Shown here: piece after piece, positions 4,782 through 31,813 of the stretch
Layout: each line of letters starts with the position of its first letter
Position numbering within the stretch: position 1 is the first letter of the stretch
Source: a virus
Length of the DNA: 31,813 nucleotides
Reading direction: 5' to 3' (one strand)
Virus record (IMG/VR): IMGVR_UViG_3300030329_002390
Span: 1-31,813 of that record
The notes under the pieces: generated by a model
Told to the model about the DNA's origin: nothing
What the model saw: the letters and a program-made list of their open reading frames with translations, nothing else
Database searches by the model: none
Program-made: the position numbers and the translations under genes

Positions 4782-4813
4782 GGGACGGGGCCCCAACAAC
4801 TGAACCCCGTCCC
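4782..4813 (+). promoter_or_regulatory. Strong GC hairpin between SWIM and O-like genes
   Basis: GGGACGGGG (4782-4790) and CCCCGTCCC (4805-4813) form a perfect 9-bp GC-rich stem with a 14-base loop. No run of T follows, so it is not a classical intrinsic terminator. It lies seven bases after the stop of the SWIM gene and upstream of the replication genes. An attenuator, an RNA-processing or stabilising site, or a partial terminator are all possible. Confidence 0.55.
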
Positions 4814-4853: not shown

Positions 4854-5711
4854 ATGACTACAAAAAAGATAGCACGGTCTTGCAAGAATGGCAAGCGTAT
4901 ATATGTTATGGTTCCGTTTTACTTGGAGCCTACCGGTCAACCGTACTCTTATATCGAGGCCAGCTTTGAATGGATGAAACTTAATTCATTGAACCGTGTA
5001 CCACCACAAAGACAACTCGCTAGCAAGTGGGGATGGTCTTATCATAAGACTCGCACCTTATGCATAGCAATGCAACAATGGTTAGACAACACGGGCGACA
5101 TAGAAGAATCAACCAAAAGTCATGCAAAAGTCATGCAAGATTCTTCTGATAAACCCGTAGATTCCGATACCCAAAATTTAGAATCGATCAAGATTCAATC
5201 AAGAATCAATCAAACTTTATCAACAGACCACGAAGGACCGGAGGTATCGATGGCCTATAAACATAATAGAATTATAAATATTGGTGCTGTTGTTTATAAG
5301 GCAGAAGACAATACATCAGAAGAACTATATGCATACATAAAGAAGTCAAGTAAAGCCAAACAGATTCTTGCTCATTACATTCAGGTATCAACTGAATGCG
5401 AGTATCCACATCCTGAGACATTGCTAGCACGTGACCTAGGTGTCAGTGCTAGATGTGCTAGGCAATGCAAAATAGAGGATGTTCTGCTCATTATAGACTG
5501 GGTTTTCTATGCTGATACTTGTGGACGTGCTGAGTGGAGGCGCAACACTGGCAACGTACAACTGTATAGCCTACTCAATAGCGGAGCGTATCAAGAGAAT
5601 CTTATCAAGGCTAGAACTTGGAAACAAAAACCAACTAAGAAGCAAACTACTAACACTAACCAGCAACAAATCGTACCACAACAGTATGACGACAAAGGGA
5701 ATCTGATATAA
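4854..5711 (+). CDS. Putative replication initiator (lambda O-like arrangement)
   Basis: A 285-residue protein. Residues about 49-76 (VPPQRQLASKWGWSYHKTRTLCIAMQQW in outline) form a winged or helix-turn-helix DNA-binding segment. A polar, low-complexity linker spans about 80-128. The C-terminal domain includes DVLLIIDWVFYAD and WRRNTGN, like the conserved C-terminal domains of phage replication proteins. The 11-bp iteron array lies in the DNA encoding the linker, as in lambda O, where the origin sits inside the gene. The next gene looks like a helicase loader. Expected role: bind the origin and recruit loader and host helicase. The C-terminal tail is Gln/Thr-rich. The start has AAGGATAA four bases upstream of the ATG. 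Confidence 0.65.
   Translation: MTTKKIARSCKNGKRIYVMVPFYLEPTGQPYSYIEASFEWMKLNSLNRVPPQRQLASKWGWSYHKTRTLCIAMQQWLDNTGDIEESTKSHAKVMQDSSDKPVDSDTQNLESIKIQSRINQTLSTDHEGPEVSMAYKHNRIINIGAVVYKAEDNTSEELYAYIKKSSKAKQILAHYIQVSTECEYPHPETLLARDLGVSARCARQCKIEDVLLIIDWVFYADTCGRAEWRRNTGNVQLYSLLNSGAYQENLIKARTWKQKPTKKQTTNTNQQQIVPQQYDDKGNLI
5104..5211 (+). repeat. Iteron array, candidate replication origin
   Basis: Eight 11-bp units begin at 5104 (AAGAATCAACC), 5115 and 5126 (both AAAAGTCATGC), 5137 (AAGATTCTTCT), 5158 (TAGATTCCGAT), 5179 (TAGAATCGATC), 5190 (AAGATTCAATC) and 5201 (AAGAATCAATC). Steps are 11, 11, 11, 21, 21, 11 and 11 bp, so every unit faces the same side of the helix. Six units contain GANTC. Eleven is not a multiple of three, so the repeat cannot reflect a protein repeat and points to selection on DNA. 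The position inside an initiator-like gene argues for an origin. Confidence 0.72.
5217..5282 (+). other. Possible DnaA-like box and AT-rich unwinding segment
   Basis: TTATCAACA (5217-5225) differs by one base from the E. coli DnaA box TTATCCACA and begins six bases after the last iteron. A 27-base segment at 5256-5282 contains only two G or C bases, which would melt easily. Iterons followed by AT-rich DNA is the order seen in the lambda origin. The box may be fortuitous. Confidence 0.4.
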
Positions 5712-6466
5712 TGGAATACCACGACAAAGTTTATTACGCCCATACTCTATTGGGTATATCAATAGAGGAATTGAATGTACGCCGGATTGAAAACATAACC
5801 TATAACTTATCAAGAATAACAGTAGCTTGGAATCGTAATGATGAATTTATGCAGCGTGCAAGAACCACGTGGATCAAAGCACTGTACAATTCTCCTGACC
5901 GTGCATTGACCGAAGCAATAGACCATTTGATACAACAGCCTAGTCAATTTCCACCGTCACTTGGCGAGATAATGAGCGTGGTAAAACAACGCGTAAAGAC
6001 TCTAGGGTTAGGATCAACGCACGAAGCGGAGCACGACTATCAACTTTGCCCTGATTGTATAGAGCGTGACGGGTACGCCCGCACTGCTATGCATTTTATC
6101 TGGATGGATGAAAAGCAGAACCCAAGGTATAAGCATGGTGAATACTACGTTGTGACAAGGATGTGCATATGCGGGTGTGATGGTAGCATTGAAAGACTAG
6201 GAGCTACAGGTACTAGACTGGCTAGTCATAGAGAAATGTTAGCAAGAAAAGACGAGCGGATTGAATTGCTTGAATGGCATAGAACAGCAGCAGACTTGCC
6301 AACACTAACCCACAAGCAAACAATGAAGCCAAACGAATATAAAGAATTGCAGGAACGGATACAAAACCGTACCGGTAAACAACCGTACAGCACAGTGCTG
6401 AACGTACTAACCAACGCGACTCCCCAACAAAAGGAATCGCTATTTCAAAAAAGGACAAAACAATGA
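5711..6466 (+). CDS. Putative helicase loader (lambda P-like position)
   Basis: A 251-residue protein. The N-terminal half is helical (TTWIKALYN, then SPDRALTEAIDHL) and includes FPPSLGEIM at residues 80-88, comparable to the PFLPSPGQF-type segment of lambda P. The middle has cysteines at 113, 116, 152, 154 and 156 (LCPDC and MCICGC), a likely zinc site that lambda P does not have. It begins by TAATG overlap at the end of the initiator-like gene, an arrangement typical of initiator/loader pairs. Expected role: bring the host replicative helicase to the origin. No ATPase motif is seen, so a DnaC-type loader is less likely. The family call rests on context plus weak local similarity. Confidence 0.5.
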   Translation: MEYHDKVYYAHTLLGISIEELNVRRIENITYNLSRITVAWNRNDEFMQRARTTWIKALYNSPDRALTEAIDHLIQQPSQFPPSLGEIMSVVKQRVKTLGLGSTHEAEHDYQLCPDCIERDGYARTAMHFIWMDEKQNPRYKHGEYYVVTRMCICGCDGSIERLGATGTRLASHREMLARKDERIELLEWHRTAADLPTLTHKQTMKPNEYKELQERIQNRTGKQPYSTVLNVLTNATPQQKESLFQKRTKQ

Positions 6467-11266: not shown

Positions 11267-14200
11267 TTATCTACTTTCTCTAAGAAGTTGTCGCAAATCT
11301 CTTTCAATCTTTGCTTTATTTCTATTCATTTCTTCAACCAAATCTTTATACGGCAATGATGTTTCAAGACCTAGAAAATAAGCACCAAAATTAGGTTCAT
11401 CATATCTTTTAAGTTCTATATTTTCTTGTGGTTTTAAACCCGCTGCCATTGCTGTTTTACTAAAATCACGAGCATTTCTTGTTATACCAATAATTGTAAA
11501 AATAAGCATAGTTGTTTGAAACATTAAAGCATCTTTTTTGTTTGTAAATCTATATTGTTCACCTTCAAATATAGGTGTTTGTCTGCGCATTTTATCAAGT
11601 TTTTGTACGCGTTTTATATTATACGTAGATACAAAATGATTAAATAATGCTTGATCACCGGGCATTGCTTTTAACAAATAAACTATATCTGCTGGTACGG
11701 ACATCGATGCACTATCAGCAATGGCAGTTTTTAATAAATCTAATGCTGGCCTTTGTCTTGAATTTTGTAAATAATTAATTGCTGCCCTTTGTATATCATC
11801 AGACGCAGCCAACAAAAATGTACTTGTTATAGTATCAAATACCTCAGCAAAAGGATTTACTAAACCATAAGTCATACTAGGCAGTTTGTCTTCTTCATCT
11901 TTAACCATTGCATACAATCGAGTATGCACACTATCATCACCATTTAACCAAGCACCAGCTTGATTAATTTGTTTCATCGATGAGCGTATAACTCTTAAAA
12001 CATATGTATGGCCAGCATCACCAACAACTGCTTTTGTTAAAGCATTAAAACCTTCTGCATGAATTTGTCTCATAAAAGACCAAAACAAAACATATCTATT
12101 AAAAAATTCTTTTTCCTCTTTACTCATTGCACCATAATCAAGAAGAGATCGTTTAGCTAAATCAACTGCTTGTTGTATAGGTAAATCATCTTGAAGTGCT
12201 GAATAAAATGTTGCTCGTCTATATGTTTCATCAGTAGCATCTGCAAACTTACTCCATAAATTTCTTTTACTTGGATTTAATAGACTTACTTTTTTTCCAC
12301 CTTTTGTAAGGCGTTCACCTGCCAAAGAAAGACCAGGCTGTTTTATTGTGCCACCTAATAATTCTTCTGCTTGCCCTTCAAAAAATTCTACTTGACCTCT
12401 AGTTAAACCTAAATTGTATCTGCTTTCTAAAGCACGTAACTCTGCTGCTTTGTATTGCCTACCAGATTTTGAAGTAAATAAAACAACATCATCAGGTACT
12501 TGATTTATTGACAATGCTTGTCTAATTGCATTCTTAATATTTTTAGGTGCTAATGCTGCGCGTGTACGTTTCATACCCACAGTTCCCATCATAATAAAAG
12601 GAGCACTAAATATATTCATTCCTATGTATCTACCATTAAAGAACGGAAAACCACCTAGCATACCCTGTGACATAGAACGCCTACACCAAGTTGCTGCGCT
12701 ATTTATCATAGTTCCAAGTATATCTGCAGCACCTGCATCAGCCTCTATTAAACTATTTATTACAGTATTTAATTTATTTGACTTAGATAGTTCTTCTAAT
12801 TGCAAAAATGATTTCTCAAGTTCTTTGCCATACATAGCAGCATAGTTTGTATTTCTTATGCTTTTAAAGTTTGGCATATTACTATCAAGTGTAGATACAA
12901 TTTGATTGCCTACAGCAAGACCATTAGCACGATAGAACTGCCTTGTGTTATCAACCAAGTCTTGTAATACGCCTATTGTTGGGTCACCGTAATAACGTCC
13001 ATCAGGTTGTTTATATCCAAACAATAAATTCCAAGCTTCATCTTGTGCTTCTTGTATAATTTTATCTATAGGTTTTTCTACGCCTATTTCTTTTGGCGCT
13101 GGACCCGGCAAAGCCACTACACCAGACTCTGCAACTTCATCATCTGTCTGTTTTGCTAATCTTTTAATTGCTCTACGTAGTTCTCTATCTAGGATTTTTT
13201 TTGTAAAAGGTAAATGATTTTGTTTAAAGTCATTTTGCAATTTAAATAAATCAGGTACAAGTGTTTTATCTTCTTGCATTATTCCAACTATATCATTTAT
13301 TATTTTACCACGTTCTTGTGGTGAAACCTTTTTGACTAGATCATAATGTAAGTTTGCAAAACCACTACCAAGCGTTGAAAAACCATCACCACCAATACCT
13401 TCAACCAAGTCATTTTCTAAATCAACATCTACTTCAATACCACTTCCTTTTAGTTTATCAATCGCTCTTTTAAAAATAGTATTGTATGAATTTTGTAATG
13501 GCCTTAAGTTTACTCCTATATTTAAAGAAGTGTAATCAGGATAATACTCTAATCTAAATCTAGGATTTTTATCAATCCAATCTTGTTGATACTTTGCAAC
13601 CTTATCTCCTATATCTGTACCAATAACCCACTCAAGATAAGATACTGGTGTTGCCTCTTTACGAGATTTTTCTCGCAACCCTCGAGTACGTTTAAACTTT
13701 GTATCAGGATGTTTTTTCTTTATTCTATCAACAATAAGTTTTATGTTGGTATATGTTGGTGTCATTACATTACTAGCAATTGGTGTATAATCTACACGAT
13801 CAAAAGGCATTAATAAGTCTCTACGCCTAGTGCCACCAAGTTGATCTATGTTTCCATAAAGTCTATTGTATTCAACAGAACCCATTAAAGAACGCAAGAT
13901 ACTTTCCAGAGAATCTATTTTTGTAAAAAATAATTCATGCTCCATTAAAATATCAAACTCATTTGCATTAGGCTTATCCATTTCCTTTAACAATCTGTTC
14001 CTATACTGTGGTTTAACTACTTGTTCTACATAGTCCCGTATAGAGCCATTAAAACTTCTATCAATAAGTTCAGTTAATCTTGATTGTACTTTGTTTTTAT
14101 GTATTGTGTATGCCTCAAGACCTAGTTCATCTAGTGCGCGGACAGGATTTTTATATTGTTTTGTTAAATCTTGAAACTTCTTTTGTGTTTGTTTGATTAT

Positions 14201-30311: not shown

Positions 30312-31813
30312 ACGTTTTTCTTCCAAGGTATAGGTTGATCTTTAATCTTCTTTGCTCTTGATTCAGAAATTAGCACATCCATTAAGTTACGTCTAGCCAA
30401 AGTTAATTTGCGCCTTGGTATATCACGTAGGCATCGATAGGCTAACGCAAGAGACATAGCCAGGTCATCGTGCATACCTCTTGGGGCTTCTGGACATATC
30501 TTAGTAACAACCAATGCTCTTAGTTCAGCAAGGACTTGTATGTCCATCTTCATTATCATTCCTTGTGTTACATACTCGCGCAAAGTTTCATAAGCATCAA
30601 GTTTTGATTTTGTTGTTGTTGTCCAATCTTTCATATTGTGGTCTAGCCATAAGTTCTTATATCCCATATGTCTTAAACGATATAAGACAACGTGACCGTG
30701 GTTATTGCTTTCACATAAGACACGAGCATCATTAAACCATTGTGCTATCTTTAATACCACATCAGCAAATCCAGAAGGACTAATTAGATTATTACGATAG
30801 TGATAAATAGGCTGTAGTGTAGCCATAGAAATAACAGATATAGTAGAGTAATCACCACCAACACCAGCAGCAACATCAACACCGATTGCGTAAACGTCAT
30901 CGTCACGGGGTTCTTCGTACAATCTTTCGTTTCCATCAAAATGTATTCCCTCTATTTCACGTATATCATCTAAGGTAAAATAAGTAGAAGCAGCAAAATG
31001 GAACGCATCATCTAGGCAACCCGGATATTCTCTACGAAACTTTTCCAATCCGATGGTGGCTATTTGTTGTCTTCTCCAGTTTAACTGGTCATATGAACAA
31101 CCATAAGAACGTATCAAATACTTTTCCTCTTCGGTTGGTTCAAAGTCTTTTGGTGCTGGTAATCTATACTTCTCGTGATCGTGCCACCAGTAACTGATTA
31201 GATGCCAGCCATTCTCAGGAGCACCCATAATAAGGCGATGAAAGACATCACCGGGCTTATTAGGAGTACTTTCAATAATAATCTGGCCTTCGCCAATCGT
31301 GGCGATAACCTGCGCCAACATCTCTTCCCCGTCATCATAAAATGCAAACTCCGATAAATGAACTGAAGACAAAGTAAACGATCTGGTACCACCCTTACTT
31401 CCGGCAGTAAATGAGCAAAGCTGTGCGCCGGTCTCTGAAAATTCCAGTGTAGTACTATTGTCTATGCTTAGACTCTTACGCAATATATTCGGCAGCGAGT
31501 TGTGCATCATACTGTCCATCTTTCGTAGATGCTTTGCTGACCGTTCGTGGAAACTAATTACACCAAACTTCAAAGGGTCTTTGGTCTGATACGTACTCCA
31601 TAGCGCATACGCCCTAAGCACGGTGCTTATACCAATCTGTCTTGGCTTAAGTATGATAACCTTCTTATGTTTCTTTAACTTAGCCAACAATGCTATCTGC
31701 TCATTATTGGGCGTAAAGTTTACCAACTTACCAGAATACTTGTCTTGTATTTTCAACAACTGTATGAACTTTACTGGATCATTTAATACAGGCTCTAACT
31801 CAACACGTATCTT
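30308..31813 (-). CDS. terL: Terminase large subunit (5' end cut by window edge)
   Basis: The packaging motor. This copy lacks only the first seven codons, which appear at the left end (start at 437). Full numbering gives Walker A KPRQIGIST at about 63-71, Walker B-like region HLSEFAFYDD, and nuclease-domain acidic motifs GVDVAAGVGGDYS, a Glu in VLCESNNHG, and the C-terminal MHDDLAMSLAL. Both ATPase and nuclease parts are intact. Full length is 508 residues. ATG at 31759 is not the true start: the frame stays open upstream to the edge. It is followed by the portal gene with an ATGA overlap. Confidence 0.93.
   Translation of the reverse strand, partial: KIRVELEPVLNDPVKFIQLLKIQDKYSGKLVNFTPNNEQIALLAKLKKHKKVIILKPRQIGISTVLRAYALWSTYQTKDPLKFGVISFHERSAKHLRKMDSMMHNSLPNILRKSLSIDNSTTLEFSETGAQLCSFTAGSKGGTRSFTLSSVHLSEFAFYDDGEEMLAQVIATIGEGQIIIESTPNKPGDVFHRLIMGAPENGWHLISYWWHDHEKYRLPAPKDFEPTEEEKYLIRSYGCSYDQLNWRRQQIATIGLEKFRREYPGCLDDAFHFAASTYFTLDDIREIEGIHFDGNERLYEEPRDDDVYAIGVDVAAGVGGDYSTISVISMATLQPIYHYRNNLISPSGFADVVLKIAQWFNDARVLCESNNHGHVVLYRLRHMGYKNLWLDHNMKDWTTTTKSKLDAYETLREYVTQGMIMKMDIQVLAELRALVVTKICPEAPRGMHDDLAMSLALAYRCLRDIPRRKLTLARRNLMDVLISESRAKKIKDQPIPWKKNV
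31398..31813. repeat. Imperfect end overlap, right copy
   Basis: The partner of bases 1-416, inside the 5' part of the large terminase gene. The two copies are about 96% identical by direct count. Coordinates in the left copy plus 31397 give the matching position here. Confidence 0.95.

Follow-up and report, generated by a model that had tools for sequence, protein, structure and literature searches.

The origin of phage lambda contains four iterons of 18–19 bp, which are imperfect inverted repeats (PMC7466680, PMC3349717). In phage L, six imprecise 11-bp repeats (TGTCCAACGGA) are present in gene 18 and have been proposed as the origin of replication (PMC8022706). This is the one explicit 11-bp precedent that we found in the literature, and a broader earlier description is possible. 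The record of Sf6 annotates a putative rep_origin, and analysis of HK022, Sf6, ST160, one Klebsiella phage and one Yersinia phage reveals two trios of repeats 66 bp apart, with the least stable tract located directly after them. Iterons of the RepA_N plasmids and of the RepA origins of PLE are mostly semi-palindromic direct repeats (PMC7145576).

Here we describe an array of 11-bp repeats in the IMG/VR virus record IMGVR_UViG_3300030329_002390, of which the whole stretch of 31,813 bp (the window) was analysed. A first-pass annotation of this DNA had proposed that the linker codons of an initiator-like protein contain an iteron origin, and this core claim is supported by our analysis, which finds that the units are kept, that their synonymous positions are constrained and that the linker peptide drifts. 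Judged from the sequences compared, the array is real and acts at the level of DNA, and it is very probably a phage replication origin embedded in its initiator's gene.

The replication locus and its initiator-like protein

Both ends of the window record repeat each other directly over about 415 bp (1–415 and 31399–31813, 96% over the first 300 bp), and the record is therefore circular or terminally redundant. We treat it as a circular phage record, which looks complete. Genes located between 2.3 and 8.1 kb run rightward and encode, among others, a SWIM-finger protein, the initiator-like protein of 285 aa, a P-like helicase loader and a Sak-type annealing protein, while the structural genes are oriented leftward. 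The loader gene (Table 1) overlaps the stop codon of the initiator-like gene by one base and adjoins this gene in all the relatives. No helicase, primase or polymerase gene of the phage was recognised among the proteins scanned, which makes host-dependent theta replication likely.

Scans of viral contigs with the initiator returned close relatives only (91–94% identical), and the loader and initiator scans together returned the same lineages only. A terminase scan followed by whole-record searches led to two distant relatives, L029 and L030, whose initiator proteins are 41% and 35% identical to that of the window, respectively. Five origin sequences were aligned (window, L001, L003, L029 and L030); L002 was also found and is like L001.

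The sequence of the initiator protein has no detectable homolog in Pfam, PHROGs, the PDB or named phages. AlphaFold2, given the five sequences, yields a model with low overall confidence (mean pLDDT 55.5). It has helices at residues 33–81, a low-confidence linker at residues 79–147 with pLDDT below 50, to which the codons of the array map, and a helical C-terminal part with values mostly of 80–90. Residues 25–90 resemble generic helix-turn-helix-like folds with Z below 5 (VIA-align), which is no evidence of family, and a Foldseek search with this low-confidence model (pLDDT 55.5) gave no match at E below 0.001. Comparison with O-like and DnaD-like initiators using hhalign yielded probabilities of 0.2–9% from a profile of five sequences only. 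The gene had earlier been called O-like, but with at most 9% in this profile–profile comparison and no Pfam or PHROG match, homology to lambda O is undemonstrated. It is the architecture of the locus and the neighbouring loader gene that point to the gene at 4854–5711 encoding a replication initiator.

Table 1. Positions of the iterons, the associated elements and the two adjoining genes in the window
Feature	Sequence	Position	Strand	Evidence
Strong hairpin and T tract, just upstream of initiator-like gene		4782–4813	-	Stem and T tract in sequence; hairpin of different sequence near this place in L029 and L030
Initiator-like gene, 285 aa		4854–5711	+	ORF; predicted HTH-like N-terminal part, linker with array, helical C-terminal part
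Iteron 1, left trio	TCAACCAAAAG	5109–5119	+	Periodicity, core pairs; aligned unit in all five genomes
Iteron 2, left trio	TCATGCAAAAG	5120–5130	+	Periodicity, core pairs, alignment
Iteron 3, left trio	TCATGCAAGAT	5131–5141	+	Periodicity, core pairs, alignment
Spacer between trios		5142–5183	+	Gapless alignment, length fixed across five genomes; trio-to-trio 75 bp
Iteron 4, right trio	TCGATCAAGAT	5184–5194	+	Alignment, core pairs
Iteron 5, right trio	TCAATCAAGAA	5195–5205	+	Periodicity, alignment, core pairs
Iteron 6, right trio	TCAATCAAACT	5206–5216	+	Periodicity, alignment, core pairs
AT-rich tract, least stable 40-mer of gene; candidate unwinding element		5256–5295	+	Duplex stability, synonymous conservation
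P-like helicase loader gene		5711–6466	+	PHROG 109 'P-like helicase loader', E=4.5e-6; PHROG 2289 'helicase loader', 2e-4

An 11-bp array in the codons of the linker

Scored in 110-bp windows, no other part of the 31.8-kb window has a lag-11 signal as strong as that of the 11-bp periodicity at 5104–5222, and lags 11, 21 and 22 are those with a clear excess of matches in the array. At lag 11 the array has 55 matches, against 37.0 ± 4.7 with a maximum of 54 in 5000 synonymous-codon shuffles, and the earlier statement that the period is not that of a peptide repeat is confirmed. Core pairs spaced 11 bp number 13 in the window, where 5.6 are expected and one of 100 shuffles reaches 13, and they cluster only at the 5104–5222 array.

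The best register is TCAAnCA(n4), common to the relatives, with six units arranged as two trios. Eight units had previously been proposed, all of them separated by 11 or 21 bp. Six units, starting at 5109, 5120, 5131, 5184, 5195 and 5206, are retained, whereas those at 5137 and 5158 are rejected because they are degenerate and do not recur in the alignment of the relatives; most of these two lies in the spacer between the trios. The starts of the six units are therefore 11, 11, 53, 11 and 11 bp apart and do not form a chain of 11s and 21s. However, since the 53-bp gap is close to five turns of 10.5 bp, the proposed phasing of all units on the same face is still plausible. The left trio of the window is degenerate (TCATGCA). 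The 11-bp unit contains no dyad, and no inverted pair has both arms inside the array.

Both trios are present at the matching position of the linker in all five genomes. The two trios are 75 bp apart in the window, L001, L029 and L030, and L003 aligns without gaps between the trios. In L029 and in L030 all six cores are perfect copies of TCAATCA, and the two trios of L029 are identical copies (33/33 at lag 75). For identical amino acids in the codon alignment, we compared the share of same codons in the array with that in the folded domains. Same-codon use is 27/27 in the array versus 50/98 in the domains between L029 and L030 (P=2e-7), and between the window and each relative it is 24/26 versus 135/196 for L001 (P=0.007), 32/34 versus 156/200 for L003 (P=0.018), 12/14 versus 34/79 for L029 (P=0.003) and 9/12 versus 27/65 for L030 (P=0.03), in tests which are not independent because the genome pairs share branches. 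The AT-rich tract follows a similar trend, with 14/15 same codons between L029 and L030 (P=0.001), 7/7 between the window and L030 (P=0.004) and 15/17 between the window and L001 (P=0.07). The stronger conservation of third codon positions in the array than in its flanks, which had been suggested as a check, is thus found.

None of the relatives has the linker without the 11-bp phasing; it is the units that are kept and the linker peptide that drifts. Between the window and L001, amino-acid identity is 0.68 in the array, the lowest of the gene regions (0.98 and 0.94 in the others). In L001, an identical G-to-C change has occurred in two adjacent left units at different codon positions, and both changes are non-synonymous (S to T and V to L). 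This fits the selection or homogenisation of a DNA repeat, and not of a peptide, by concerted evolution at the DNA level.

The AT-rich stretch noted earlier at 5256–5282 is confirmed and lies inside the least stable 40-mer of the gene, and the gene-wide stability minimum is located at the matching place in all five genomes. Synonymous conservation and this stability minimum in the five genes locate the DNA-level constraint at the array and the AT-rich tract. The DnaA box noted at 5217 exists as a one-mismatch 9-mer, but such DnaA-like sites are at chance level in the window (10 versus 11.6 expected) and that of 5217 is lost in L001, L029 and L030; a DnaA-dependent origin with a conserved box by the iterons was rejected on these grounds. 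GC skew, another check suggested earlier, has no inflection at the array and follows the direction of the genes.

In all five genomes a strong hairpin precedes the start of the initiator gene by about 20–75 bp, with stem sequences that differ among them. It is located at 4782–4813 in the window, within the 110 bp upstream of the initiator in L001 and L003, at about 795–825 in L029 and on the reverse strand at about 120–155 in L030. T-rich DNA follows the hairpin on the minus strand in all five, in the manner of a leftward intrinsic terminator, and the minus-strand hairpin possibly ends a leftward transcript. This region is reminiscent of the leftward oop transcript region beside lambda O, and the putative origin region may give rise to a leftward transcript.

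Arrays of 11 bp in other phage initiator genes

A scan of viral contigs for three TCAATCA cores at 11-bp spacing returned 20 stretches, Lactobacillus-type phages among them, and 12 of the 20 lie inside initiator-like genes by inspection. A relaxed four-unit pattern gave 47 matches in viral contigs. Both scans together comprise 57 stretches, 39 of which lie within an ORF of 140 aa or more on the same strand, a strand bias that is partly forced, since the reverse complement TGATTGA contains TGA stop codons and steps of 11 bp pass through every frame, and that was excluded from the evidence. When proteins of these ORFs were scanned singly, 17/20 matched replication or primosomal PHROGs. In cellular genomes, matches to the triple TCAATCA motif are mostly outside long ORFs and include some minisatellite-like runs; its use there as a stand-alone origin marker was rejected, and the motif alone is therefore not diagnostic outside initiator genes. 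L036 and L047 contain a minisatellite of TCAATCATCGC units with interspersed TGGCCTTAA, outside long ORFs and unrelated to this origin type, although it fits the same motif pattern.

Named phage initiators were found by homology to two array-bearing proteins and then tested for period without the motif. The best period is 11 bp (once 22) in 15 of the 20 genes, at 35–49% of the gene, against 11 or 22 bp in 3 of 107 non-initiator control ORFs (six initiators having been removed from the control loci), and 15/20 is not an unbiased frequency because several of the genes are closely related and the seeds had been selected for their arrays. A core NCMANCR, picked after viewing the data, is phased three or more times in 10/20 of the named initiators versus 0.6 expected from synonymous shuffles. 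By sequence, the unit cores across the surveyed helix-turn-helix initiator genes look related (NCMANCR).

Direct iterons of 11 bp in the linker (viral-contig loci L037–L092 and named phage initiators L216–L235) were observed in phages of Lactobacillus, Staphylococcus, Listeria, Bacillus, Cellulophaga, Shewanella, Pseudomonas and enterics. In L060, TCAAACA units at 11427–11540 form two trios, 77 bp apart, with an AT-rich stretch after them; its lags 66 and 77 are both high, and its initiator-like gene has no PHROG match. In the Lactobacillus-type locus L041, a 185-aa ORF from 5780 onwards (+) is a second gene in which 11-bp units (GAACAAAGTGC-like) form an array, and it may encode a further initiator that has a separate origin. 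A larger initiator-like protein (501 aa in L070, L073 and L080; 309 aa, cut, in L074) has 11-bp arrays located before the helix-turn-helix part, in successive blocks whose unit sequence drifts.

The presence of the 11-bp period in most of the sampled phage initiator genes, from Gram-negative as well as Gram-positive hosts, suggests a general rule. It is even conceivable, although we regard this as rather doubtful, that same-face 11-bp direct iterons located in the initiator linker, with related cores (TCAAnCA, TCCAACG, ACAAGCA, GCCAACA and others), are the prevailing origin type of phages whose initiators are of this helix-turn-helix kind, in many bacterial hosts, and reflect one ancestral mode of reading DNA. 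If this is true, the 18–19 bp dyad iterons of lambda would be a derived exception, and origins of uncultured phages could be located from sequence alone.

A candidate origin, its alternatives and its relation to known origins

The comparisons show at this locus an array that is conserved as DNA, an architecture that stays fixed, a stability minimum in AT-rich sequence and an adjoining loader gene, whereas binding to the array, melting of the duplex, loading of the helicase and activity as an origin are inferred. In the 285-aa protein, it would be the helix-turn-helix-like N-terminal part that binds the six 11-bp direct repeats with core TCAAnCA. Because the sites in a trio are about one helical turn apart, the bound protomers would stack on one face, and the two trios, five turns apart, may wrap or loop to give an O-some-like complex. 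This complex might then melt the AT-rich tract at 5256–5282, and the C-terminal part of the protein would pass on to the P-like loader (5711–6466), which would position DnaB of the host for theta replication.

Alternatively, the repeats could be an operator at which this protein or another phage regulator controls transcription of the replication operon, with replication starting elsewhere; the linker lies inside the transcribed operon, and direct repeats recognised by a DNA-binding protein are compatible with such a role. We consider such an operator array unlikely, given that the array lies about 250 bp into the gene with no promoter-like site there on the + strand, that the AT-rich tract is co-conserved with it and that the architecture recurs in O-like initiators, which is unexpected for operators. 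The persistence of position, count and 75-bp spacing at 35–41% protein identity likewise argues against a neutral tandem repeat that slippage has produced in a linker where any polar residue would do. Although the linker is polar and poorly conserved, and slippage can generate 11-mers, as the identical trio copy of L029 might suggest, synonymous codons of the array are better conserved than those of the folded domains and the 11-bp period recurs in 15/20 named initiators versus 3/107 controls, which leaves slippage a very small chance.

The region folds somewhat better than its shuffles (z −2.47), mainly through a stem flanking the left trio, and the conserved feature might thus be an RNA structure in the operon mRNA. 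However, this stem (AGAAGAATC/GATTCTTCT) is disrupted in L001 and missing from L029 and L030, no compensatory changes are seen in the five sequences, no Rfam family matches and the 11-bp period lacks an RNA rationale; RNA structure was rejected as extremely improbable. A partition (centromere-like) site is hardly credible either: iterons are found in parC-type sites too (PMC6669507), but the proteins scanned include none recognised as ParA-, ParM- or ParB-like, and iterons in an initiator-like gene beside a loader gene are typical of origins. Against the preferred reading as an origin stand the degenerate left trio, the missing GC-skew inflection, the lack of a detectable homolog of the initiator, its weak profile match with O-like proteins and the number of origin sequences, which is five.

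Read as an origin, the array narrows the start of replication in this lineage of uncultured phages to a segment of about 190 bp. Its partner is an initiator for which searches of protein families, PDB sequences and named phage records gave no match. An origin would thus be findable from its period, its constraint at synonymous positions and the stability of the duplex where protein homology fails.

As in the lambda ori, the iterons are located in the middle of the initiator gene, the AT-rich tract is 3' of them and a helicase-loader gene is next. The window differs from lambda in having six 11-bp direct repeats without a dyad in place of imperfect inverted repeats of 18–19 bp. It thus lacks the dyad iterons of a lambda-type origin proper, while the neighbouring P-type loader agrees with such an origin (PHROG 109, E=4.5e-6). 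The earlier view that the locus reproduces the logic of the lambda origin with an apparently unrelated sequence holds in that it would work like the lambda origin, but the 11-bp form is not new, being present in phage L and the Sf6/HK022-type phages.

With the lambdoid type of phage L, Sf6, ST160 and HK022, in which the origin is inside an O-like initiator gene (gene 18 / 43), the window shares 11-bp direct repeats in the codons of the initiator linker, two trios and an AT-rich tract. The unit, however, is TCAAnCA(n4) in the window and (TG)TCCAACG in that type, the trios are 75 bp apart compared with 66 bp, the AT-rich tract is about 40 bp further from the array, and the initiators are not detectably homologous. 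The gene downstream is a P-like loader in the window and a DnaB-type helicase (gp12-like) in the phage L type, and the window therefore has an analogous architecture and is not a member of that replication module. By analogy, the origin would work like those of lambda and phage L, and we claim membership in neither module, since the dyad iterons of the former and the DnaB-type neighbour of the latter are both lacking.

The DnaD-like and O-like initiators of phiAT3 (Lactobacillus) and of Staphylococcus, Listeria, Bacillus and other phages also have 11-bp direct repeats in the linker, and the core of phiAT3 is TCAATCA, the same as here. These phages differ in having mostly a single block of 3–6 units, other protein families and, in several, a DnaC-like loader or DnaB-like helicase as neighbour. 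RepA_N plasmid and PLE RepA origins resemble the window in combining iterons with an initiator that has a DNA-binding N-terminal domain; however, the iterons of the PLE satellites are in noncoding DNA and those of the window are inside coding sequence. The candidate origin described here is a known arrangement, in its 11-bp double-trio form, in a phage lineage with an orphan initiator.
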